Positions 13,089 through 15,727 of a DNA stretch of 33,431 nucleotides are shown here, one piece after another (within the stretch, counting starts at the first letter, position 1; every line of letters begins with the position of its first letter). Under the pieces are notes generated by a model. It saw only the letters and a list, made by a program, of their open reading frames with translations, searched no databases and had not been told where the DNA came from. Source of the DNA: Pseudonocardiales bacterium (GTDB lineage Bacteria > Actinomycetota > Actinomycetes > Mycobacteriales > Pseudonocardiaceae); assembly GCA_019241525.1 (NCBI GenBank), contig JAFAWY010000010.1:1-33431 (forward strand), given 5' to 3'. Made by a program: the position numbers and the translations under genes.

Positions 13089-13206
13089 AGCGACCACCGT
13101 CTGGACGAGTAGTTGACGGAGAAAACTGCCCAAACCACATCACGGTACGCCGTCTTGGCGAGATCTTGGGCTGGACACGCGGGCCGGAGTGTCGCAGTGT
13201 GGTGTC

Positions 13207-14043
13207 ATGCGGGCGATCTGGAAGGGCGCGCTGGCCTTCGGCATGGTCAGCATCCCTGTGCGGCTGTATGCGGCGACCGAGGACCGCGACGTCTCCTTCC
13301 ATCAGGTGCACGAGGACGATGCCGGCCGGGTGCGCTACCGCCGGGTGTGCGAGGAGTGCGGCGAAGAGGTGGCCTACGCCGACCTGGCCAAGGGTTACGA
13401 GCTCCCGTCGGGTGAGACCGTGGTGCTCACCGATGAGGACTTCGCAAGCCTGCCGCTGCCTACCACCAAGGTCGTGGAGCTGGTCGCCTTCGTGCCGGCC
13501 GACCAGGTCGATCCGCTCGCGATGGCTCGCGGTTACTACCTGGAGCCGGAACCGGCTGGTCGTAAGCCCTACGAACTGCTGCGAGCCGCCCTGGACCGCA
13601 ACCAGCGGGTGGGTCTGGCGAAGATCGCGGTACGGAACAAGGAGTCGCTGGCCGTGCTGCGACCGCGCGGCAACCTGCTTGCGCTGCAGACCATGGTGTG
13701 GCCGGACGAGGTGCGCAAGGCCCAGTTCGACGTGCTGGACCGGGAAGTCGCGGTCAGCGACGCGGAGAGCCGGATGGCCGACACGCTTGTCCAAGCGATG
13801 TCGACCGATTTCACCCCCGAGGAGTACCACGACGGGTACCGCGAGGCACTGCTGTCCGTCATCGAAGCCAAGGTCGCCGGCGAGCAGGTCGTCCCGCGAG
13901 CCGCTCCCGAACAGCCTGCACCGGCAGTTGATCTGATCGCCGCGCTGCAGGCGTCGGTCGAGGCCGCCAAGGCCGCCCGCACCAAACCCGTGGACGTCCC
14001 CACCCAGCGCGACCCCTCAGACAACCCCGCCCGCCGCCGCTAA
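13207..14043 (+). CDS. ku: Ku, DNA double-strand-break end-binding protein
   Basis: 278 residues from ATG 13207 (MRAIWKGALAFGMVSIPVRLY), the canonical N-terminus and close to the usual mycobacterial length. A GTG at 13189 only adds a non-conserved stub. The Ku core is intact: HEDDAGRVRYRRVCEECGEEV, then KGYELPSGETVVLTDEDF, then KPYELLRAAL and GLAKIAVRNKESLAVLRP. A short C-terminal tail of Ala, Lys and Arg follows, the part that in homologues recruits LigD and binds DNA. Bacterial Ku homodimers thread onto DNA ends in non-homologous end joining. The normal partner LigD is not seen here; instead the next gene carries a ligase-like module that has lost its catalytic residues. The stop codon touches the palindrome at 14044. 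Confidence 0.97.
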   Translation: MRAIWKGALAFGMVSIPVRLYAATEDRDVSFHQVHEDDAGRVRYRRVCEECGEEVAYADLAKGYELPSGETVVLTDEDFASLPLPTTKVVELVAFVPADQVDPLAMARGYYLEPEPAGRKPYELLRAALDRNQRVGLAKIAVRNKESLAVLRPRGNLLALQTMVWPDEVRKAQFDVLDREVAVSDAESRMADTLVQAMSTDFTPEEYHDGYREALLSVIEAKVAGEQVVPRAAPEQPAPAVDLIAALQASVEAAKAARTKPVDVPTQRDPSDNPARRR

Positions 14044-14069
14044 CCCGCAGTCTGGATCCAGACTGCGGG
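14044..14069. repeat. Dispersed palindrome, copy 2 (immediately after ku)
   Basis: A perfect 26-bp palindrome: CCCGCAGTCTGGA and its exact complement with no spacer. It begins at the base after the ku stop codon and could form a strong hairpin in the transcript. It has no T-run, so it may be an attenuator, an RNA-stabilising end or a protein-binding site. Confidence 0.85.
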
Positions 14070-14086
14070 AAACGGGCCGCTGAAAA

Positions 14087-14110
14087 CCGCAGTCTGCATC
14101 CAAACTGCGG
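14087..14110. repeat. Dispersed palindrome, copy 3 (upstream of the ligase-kinase gene)
   Basis: CCGCAGTCTG (14087-14096), loop CATC, then CAAACTGCGG (14101-14110), a 10-bp arm pair with one mismatch. It ends about 18 bases before the start codon at 14129 and just ahead of the ribosome binding site, so it could influence translation of the pseudo-ligase/kinase gene. Confidence 0.75.
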
Positions 14111-14128: not shown

Positions 14129-15727
14129 ATGGAACTGGTGCGGCCGATGTTGCCGGTGACAGGGCCGTTGCCGGTGGGGGCAGGGTGGGCCTTCGAGTTC
14201 AGCTGGGACGGTATCCGGGCTCTGGGCTGCGCCCAGCCGGACGGTCTGAGGCTGTTCAGCGTCCGGCACCGCTGTATCACCGCTGCCTACCCCGAGTTGG
14301 CCGCATTCCTGGCCCGCCGCCGCGCGCTGCTGGACGGAAAGATCGTCGCGCTGGACTCCTGCGGCCGGCCCAGCTTCGGGCAGCTCCAGCGACGGATGAA
14401 CGTGCAACGTCCCACCTCGATCATGCTGTCCCGGTCACCGGTGACCTACTACGTATTCGATCTGCTGAGCTTGGACGGCGAATCCACCCTCCAGCTTCCT
14501 TACCAGCGCCGCCGGGAGCTGTTGGCGGCACTGCAGCTCACCGATGGGCCGGTCATGATGCCGCCATGCTTCATGGACGCCGACGGTCAGACGGTGCTGG
14601 ACACCGCCACCCAGCACGGCCTCCACGGGGTGATCGCCAAGCGGGTCGAGTCGACATACCAGCCAGGCCGCTCGCGCCACTGGGTACAGACCACCCTGCG
14701 GCAGACCCAGGAAGTGATCATCGGCGGGTGGCTACCGGAGCGCCGCCGGGCCGCGTCGATCGGTGCACTGCTGGTGGGCGTGCCGACCGAGGCCGGGTTG
14801 CGCTATGTCGGCCAGGTCGGTACCGGCTTCACCGAGGCAAACCGCCAAGAGCTGGGTGACCGGTTGGCTGGGTTGGCCGTACCGGCAAGCCCGTTCGCGG
14901 ATCTGGTGCCCAGTGAGGCGGGCCGGCGGGTGCACTGGGTGGAACCTCGGCTGCTCGGCGAGGTGGCGTACCGGCAGTGGACCCCGCAGGGTCGGCTCGG
15001 GCACCCCACCTGGCGCGGTCTGCGACCAGCCAAGCATGTCGCCGCCATCCAGACACCGGTCGTGCTGTGCGCGCAGGGATCCGGCCCCGAGCGTGAAGAT
15101 CAGCGGTTGCTCGCCGAGCTCGACCGTGCCGTCGCGCAGGTCCGCTCCGAGCTGCGGACGCTGCGCGACCAGATCTCCCCGCATTTCCTGCACAACACCA
15201 TCAGCAGCATCGTCGCCATGGTCAGCACCGATCCCACCCGGGCCCGCGACCTGCTGATCGTTTTCGCCGAATTCGCCCGCTACTCGCTGCGCTCGGCCAC
15301 CGAGACCACGCTGGCTGACGAACTGGAAAACATCGATCGGTACCTGACGTTGCAGAAGACGCGGTTCCGGGAACGGTTGCGGGTCCAGATCGAGGTCGCC
15401 CCCACCGTCTTGCCAGCTGTGTTGCCCTTTTTGGCGCTCCAGCAACTCGTCGACAACGCGGTCCGCAACGGCATCGAGCGCCAGCAACTCGGCGGCACCG
15501 TGACGCTCACCGCCCGCCAGGATGGCGATGACTGCGTGATCACCGTCTCTGACGACGGGCCTGGGACGCTGGATCCCAATGTTGCGGGCACTCTGCGCAC
15601 CATCAATGATCAGCTGCGGGAGCGGTTTGGTGCGCGCTACGGCGTGTTTTCGGATGTCATTCCGGGCGTGGGCACCGCGATTACGCTGCGGGTCCCGGCG
15701 ACACCGTCACACCGCGCCGGCGAATGA
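14129..15727 (+). CDS. Fusion of a catalytically dead ATP-dependent DNA-ligase module to a LytS-type histidine kinase
   Basis: 532 residues, with ribosome binding site GTGAGGGAGA before ATG 14129. Residues 1-195 follow the LigD/LigC adenylation domain and about 196-305 its OB-fold (QEVIIGGWLPERRR, then HPTWRGLRPAKH). Every catalytic position is changed. The KxDG lysine is Ser25 (FEFSWDGIR). The DGEIVAL glutamate is Lys71 (DGKIVAL). The EGVIAKR glutamate is His166 (HGVIAKR). The motif V lysines are Gln187 and Thr189 (WVQTT). Residues about 322-350 look like a coiled linker. The C-terminal part is a HisKA_7TM/LytS-like kinase: His352 in ISPHFLHNTI, N-box VDNAVRNG with Asn443, DDGPG at 475-479, and GVGTAITLRVP. 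No membrane helix and no response regulator are nearby. Probably a cytoplasmic sensor of DNA ends or nicks (inference). It overlaps the convergent gene by 21 bp. Confidence 0.93.
   Translation: MELVRPMLPVTGPLPVGAGWAFEFSWDGIRALGCAQPDGLRLFSVRHRCITAAYPELAAFLARRRALLDGKIVALDSCGRPSFGQLQRRMNVQRPTSIMLSRSPVTYYVFDLLSLDGESTLQLPYQRRRELLAALQLTDGPVMMPPCFMDADGQTVLDTATQHGLHGVIAKRVESTYQPGRSRHWVQTTLRQTQEVIIGGWLPERRRAASIGALLVGVPTEAGLRYVGQVGTGFTEANRQELGDRLAGLAVPASPFADLVPSEAGRRVHWVEPRLLGEVAYRQWTPQGRLGHPTWRGLRPAKHVAAIQTPVVLCAQGSGPEREDQRLLAELDRAVAQVRSELRTLRDQISPHFLHNTISSIVAMVSTDPTRARDLLIVFAEFARYSLRSATETTLADELENIDRYLTLQKTRFRERLRVQIEVAPTVLPAVLPFLALQQLVDNAVRNGIERQQLGGTVTLTARQDGDDCVITVSDDGPGTLDPNVAGTLRTINDQLRERFGARYGVFSDVIPGVGTAITLRVPATPSHRAGE

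Follow-up and report, generated by a model that had tools for sequence, protein, structure and literature searches.

The window analysed here, a stretch of 33,431 nucleotides from a Pseudonocardiales bacterium (contig JAFAWY010000010.1), carries a ku gene and, next to it, a gene that joins a ligase-like module to a histidine kinase. The features are as follows, with positions counted from the first nucleotide of the window.

13189..14043 (+), ku (TIGR02772, E 1e-91), with an ATG at 13207 as a possible alternative start
14045..14110 (no strand), two palindromes between ku and the fusion gene (14045-14068 and 14087-14110), their starts 42 bp apart
14129..15727 (+), fusion of a pseudo-ligase and a LytS-type histidine kinase, 532 aa (open frame and orthologues)
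14129..14698 (+), nucleotidyltransferase (adenylation) domain, residues ~1-190 (Pfam PF01068, residue tallies, model)
within 14129..14698 (+), active site of the adenylation domain, with S25, V45, K71, H166 and Q187 as altered residues
14699..15043 (+), OB-fold domain, residues ~191-305 (Pfam PF04679 at 208-302)
15095..15163 (+), predicted helix connecting ligase module and kinase, residues 323-345 (DSSP on the model, low confidence)
15149..15379 (+), His_kinase domain (dimerisation/phosphoacceptor) with His352, residues 341-417 (Pfam PF06580, E 1.8e-21)
15434..15697 (+), HATPase_c domain with Asn443 and the DxGxG box at 475-479, residues ~436-523 (Pfam PF02518 at 436-486)

The frame of the fusion gene is unbroken, and Pfam recognizes in it two ligase domains, a LytS-type His_kinase and a HATPase_c domain; the ligase-kinase fusion described in the original prediction, which was made from the sequence of this stretch, is thus confirmed as an observation. 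The first part has the nucleotidyltransferase and OB fold of an ATP-dependent DNA ligase (the ligase domain of LigD), and the structures listed by a structure comparison were ligases only, aligned over residues 1-314 of the protein. The kinase half, which is of poor quality in the predicted structure, was barely probed by this comparison. In NCBIfam the ligase part belongs to the NHEJ ligase domain TIGR02779, with 243 bits against a cut-off of 228, and as a consequence automatic annotation may label the fusion a working ligase. The protein is predicted to be soluble, with no clear membrane helix, in keeping with the earlier claim.

Homologues of near full length (71-100% identity) occur in 10 of the 11 genomes of the window's genus (g1), its own included. 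A profile built from 20 fusions, applied with a family cut-off of E 1e-130, matches in 80 of 390 genomes of the family, giving 81 rows from four genera only: g1 (10 of 11 genomes), g45 (2 of 2, one of them with two copies), g5 (17 of 18) and g30, which is taken to be Pseudonocardia (51 of 62), these counts assuming that the unlisted handles G265-G326 all belong to g30. The original prediction had made much depend on related genomes also carrying the fusion, and they do. All but one of the 81 rows (79 of 80 genomes) include the kinase half; the exception is G273, whose sequence stops at a contig end before the kinase. The profile match comprises the ligase part only in three rows, from G273, G274 and the second G388 (g45) copy, and for the latter two the kinase part was read directly from the sequence. 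Among sampled genomes outside the family (397 of the order at E 1e-110 and 345 of the class at E 1e-100, cut-offs that, like the one for the family, weak fusions may escape), the kinase half was not found in any match, all of which stop at or before profile position 345, ahead of the kinase histidine. A tree of 63 ligase modules has one branch, with support of 100/100, that separates 30 fusions from 33 non-fusion ligases (a set that holds one gene twice, L041 and L175, at zero branch length), and on this ground a single origin fits the fusion family. A tblastn search of PLSDB for a plasmid-borne fusion hit 1469 records but aligned over 80% of the query in none of them, and PADLOC, run on the fusion and on Ku, returned no anti-phage defence family at E 0.001.

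That the fusions form a real protein family is practically beyond doubt. Missing active-site residues, described below, might be taken as the mark of a decaying pseudogene or of an assembly artefact, but this is ruled out by conservation of the match in 80 genomes and by dN/dS values well below 1 in both halves (0.08-0.38 in the ligase part and 0.11-0.37 in the kinase part, 45 pairs within g1). Judged by these ratios, the ligase part is under purifying selection.

Residue roles in the LigD active site follow section 6 of the review PMC8656161, and LigD numbering is used for them. In all 33 non-fusion ligases, Lys481, Arg486, Arg501, Glu530, Glu613, Lys618 and Lys635 are constant. Three of these are missing from every aligned fusion row: the motif I nucleophilic lysine Lys481 (0/80; Ser25 in the window), Arg501 (Val45) and the glutamate of the motif III DGE, Glu530 (0/80; Lys71). 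The metal-binding Glu613 of motif IV survives in 14 of the 81 rows (seven from g5 and seven from Pseudonocardia; His166 in the window), and the first lysine of motif V, Lys635, in six of 81, all of them Pseudonocardia (Gln187 in the window). Compared with the M. tuberculosis LigD ligase domain (1vs0/6nhz), therefore, the lysine nucleophile, Arg501, the DGE glutamate, the motif IV glutamate and the first lysine of motif V are all altered in the fusion, and a kinase is attached. The domain remains, its chemistry apparently lost, and self-adenylation should no longer occur. Thr189, which had also been counted as a catalytic loss, was dropped from the argument, as only six of the 33 non-fusion ligases have a lysine at that position.

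Could the motif III lysine, K71, substitute for the lost nucleophile, leaving the protein a ligase after all? All 13 rows from g1 and g45 have it, as do three of the 51 from Pseudonocardia. However, all 16 aligned g5 rows have a valine there, and the residue that corresponds to His166 of the window, Glu613, is one whose change to alanine leaves LigD without nick sealing according to PMC8656161. An active ligase with a relocated lysine is judged very unlikely on these two grounds.

The loss is also selective: among the non-fusion rows 46 module positions reach a constancy of 97% or more, and only six of these drop below 20% in the 30 rows from g1, g45 and g5, namely four active-site residues and positions 87 and 208. 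(These 30 rows include the second G388 copy, on contig C188, and two g5 rows, G042 and G043, from outside the ku survey described below.) Despite the active-site losses, the fusions retain E23, R30 and K171. Among the aligned rows of the three genera, the residues that in LigD touch adenine or ribose hardly vary: Glu479 stands in 29/29, Arg486 in 28/29 and Lys618 in 30/30. This conservation favours an adenylate sensor, in which the module, itself doing no chemistry, would bind AMP or another adenylate, or abortive 5'-adenylated DNA, and would report it through the kinase. The contact roles are those given in section 6 of PMC8656161. A motif IIIa phenylalanine in all 30 rows and an altered triphosphate/metal site, with Lys481, Arg501, Glu530 and Lys635 gone, agree with such a sensor. 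On the other hand, contact residues may persist for folding, and Pseudonocardia lacks the phenylalanine in 51/51 rows and Lys618 in 24 of 51; we regard adenylate sensing as quite unlikely. The mean net charge of the ligase module is +9.0 in 15 rows from g1, g45 and g5, +5.0 in 15 Pseudonocardia fusions and +1.8 in the 33 non-fusion ligases, in a comparison that ignores relatedness. At residues 239 and 303 every aligned fusion of g1, g45 and g5 has Arg and His, respectively, where the commonest non-fusion residues are Leu (94%) and Asp (52%); both are candidates for a new interface.

The phosphoacceptor His352 is present in all 80 aligned fusion rows, and Asn443 together with DxGxG in 30/30 rows of g1, g45 and g5, so that these kinase motifs are intact in the window, as the original prediction had it, and throughout these three genera. 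The last glycine box is retained in only one of the three g45 rows. Pseudonocardia fusions lack the kinase Asn in 49 of 50 aligned rows. In that genus (among loci L082-L158) His352 has outlasted the erosion of the ATPase part, and some rows have a long, low-complexity linker. Without an ATP site of its own, such a conserved histidine may receive its phosphate from another kinase. The flanks of the Pseudonocardia fusions are themselves conserved, with a helicase-like gene upstream and phosphorylase-like and HAD-like genes downstream (names guessed from sequence).

Linkage to ku follows a similar division between genera. Neighbouring genes were called by a simple codon-composition script. In g1, ku lies directly upstream of the fusion and in the same direction in 10/10 fusion genomes, with a gap from its stop to the chosen start of 7-22 bp in eight and 82-85 bp in two, so the position directly after ku that was claimed for the window holds for all ten. 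In g45 the two genes are adjacent and convergent in both genomes, and the second G388 copy, one of three in g45, is on a contig without ku. In g5 the distance is 8.0-13.7 kb on the same contig in 15/15 genomes examined (17 carry the fusion). Overall, ku is adjacent to the fusion or within 14 kb of it in 27/27 examined genomes of g1, g45 and g5, which share ancestry and so represent few independent events. Pseudonocardia is different: ku is not near the fusion in 12/12 genomes examined (51 carry it), the nearest being 0.49-3.98 Mb away in nine, with none on the fusion contig in the other three. Loss of the ku link and loss of the ATP site are found in one lineage and may be one event.

The two palindromes between ku and the fusion gene were considered as operators of a ku-fusion operon. 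This is ruled out, since their pattern, CCGCAGTYTGGATNCANACTGCGG, occurs at 22 places in the window's genome, including four pairs whose starts are 42 bp apart, and the reversed control pattern gives zero matches in the same genome. They are probably a dispersed genomic repeat that lies outside the ku-fusion system.

Other end-joining genes of the window's genome lie elsewhere. Contig C88 encodes an intact-looking ligase and a LigD PE-Pol protein; on C5 lie a gene for a Pol protein and another ligase-like gene, and on C134 a second ku. With the rest of the set encoded in this way, the fusion is probably dispensable for sealing. It is nonetheless rather probable that the fusion functions in the Ku pathway. 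One form that this could take is a modulator of end joining with no signalling role, in which the dead module, at ends bound by Ku, competes with the split LigD enzymes or positions them, while the kinase half serves chiefly as a dimerisation device or titrates a stand-alone kinase. The operon-like spacing of ku and fusion, the ligase, PE-Pol and Pol proteins encoded on other contigs, and the Pseudonocardia fusions, which have kept the His part with an eroded ATP site, would all suit a modulator. It explains poorly why every row of the three ku-linked genera has an intact His, Asn and DxGxG and why dN/dS of the kinase part is as low as it is, and we hold it to be unlikely.

The kinase half shares 54% identity with a stand-alone kinase in the window's genome, whose gene is adjoined by genes for an S49 peptidase and a LytTR regulator. 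In this assembly, which is 98% complete, the search for LytTR genes found a single one, which lies close to that kinase and on a different contig from the fusion. The same arrangement of two LytS-type kinases (fusion and stand-alone) and one LytTR gene, the latter 1.6-4.1 kb away from the gene of the stand-alone kinase, occurs in four genomes, namely the window's own (G000), G008, G036 (one contig) and G045. From two kinases and one regulator, we infer that a shared LytTR regulator is the most economical partner of the fusion in these four genomes; the argument is limited to 4 of the 15 genomes searched, since the remaining 11 have 2-5 LytTR genes each. A search of the 15 for LytTR genes alone found none on the fusion contig in eight, some of these contigs being short, and in the other seven the nearest on that contig is more than 190 kb away.

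A closer tie to the stand-alone kinase can also be envisaged, in which mixed dimers modulate that kinase and its LytTR regulator, any link to DNA or Ku being secondary. The 54% identity and the location of the sole LytTR gene point in this direction. Against it, a kinase tree places 20 fused kinases outside a group of 30 stand-alone ones with support of 97/97, to which long-branch warnings apply; the separation looks old, and such a partnership is decidedly improbable.

The reading that we prefer, with a probability of about 0.45, is a cytoplasmic LytS-type kinase with a pseudo-ligase as its sensor, acting beside Ku. The input domain would be a former LigD-like DNA ligase (nucleotidyltransferase and OB domains) that is not expected to adenylate itself. 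It would still clamp DNA at nicks or breaks, by itself or together with the Ku of the neighbouring gene, and its closure or dimer state would be relayed through the connecting helix to the kinase, which would autophosphorylate on His352 and hand the phosphate to a LytTR response regulator. That the module binds DNA, contacts Ku and switches the kinase, and that a LytTR regulator takes the phosphate, we infer from the gene and its surroundings. The last step, signalling of breaks through a LytTR regulator, is doubtful when taken by itself. Against the preferred reading stand the lack of a nearby LytTR gene in the 15 genomes searched, the g45 copy (C188 of G388) whose contig has no ku, and the retention of the last glycine box in just one g45 row of three. 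Pseudonocardia, which accounts for 51 of the 81 rows, argues against a break-reading kinase as a general property of the family, given its lost Asn and distant ku. From the interpretation first put forward for this stretch, the dead ligase module, the intact kinase motifs in the window's genus, the soluble protein and the recurrent linkage to ku have stood, and the argument from Thr189 has fallen.

The fusion resembles LytS-type histidine kinases (PF06580 with HATPase_c) in His352, Asn443 and DxGxG, and differs from them in its ligase-module input, the absence of a clear membrane helix and the lack of a LytTR gene found nearby. To our knowledge, no two-component kinase described from bacteria senses DNA breaks directly. 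In eukaryotes, DNA-PK is a Ku-recruited kinase with serine/threonine chemistry, and its kinase fold is unrelated to that of the fusion, which has histidine chemistry and a pseudo-ligase sensor; the likeness, if the model is right, would be that of a Ku-associated kinase reporting DNA ends. A bacterial counterpart of DNA-PK, in which a kinase of the Ku operon has a dead ligase that reads the break, and the DNA end sets off a phosphorelay to a LytTR regulator, is a tentative and on balance unlikely proposal. Bacterial end joining by Ku and LigD, described with no signalling arm in the available part of PMC8656161, shares with the fusion a ku gene and the ligase fold, and differs in that the fusion should not seal DNA. 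The original prediction knew of no described protein of this design, and a search of the PMC literature for ligase-kinase fusions, inactive bacterial ligases and DNA-break-sensing histidine kinases likewise returned none.

The carriers are a group of soil bacteria in which the fusion may report DNA breaks to the cell. If so, a conserved ku-linked pseudo-ligase kinase would supply bacterial end joining with a signalling arm and would be a clear example of a repair enzyme converted to a sensor. Bacterial signalling from Ku-bound ends thereby becomes a testable question, for which the ku-linked genera with intact kinase motifs, and Pseudonocardia with its eroded ATP site and ku elsewhere, are natural comparison groups.

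A shorter ligase-like gene, with the nucleotidyltransferase domain only, lies less than 1 kb from ku in 13 of 26 genomes (g5 6/6, g45 1/2, Pseudonocardia 6/6, g1 0/4; loci L219-L231). Two examples are given with positions in their own loci.

L167:14826-15647 (+), nucleotidyltransferase-only ligase-like gene
L159:3907-4614 (-), nucleotidyltransferase-only ligase-like gene

The motif I lysine of this gene is gone in g5 (DWAG or DWSG) and in G388 (RWTG), and is present in the six Pseudonocardia genomes (KWDG). On contig C543 of G388 the nucleotidyltransferase-only gene, ku and a fusion gene are neighbours.
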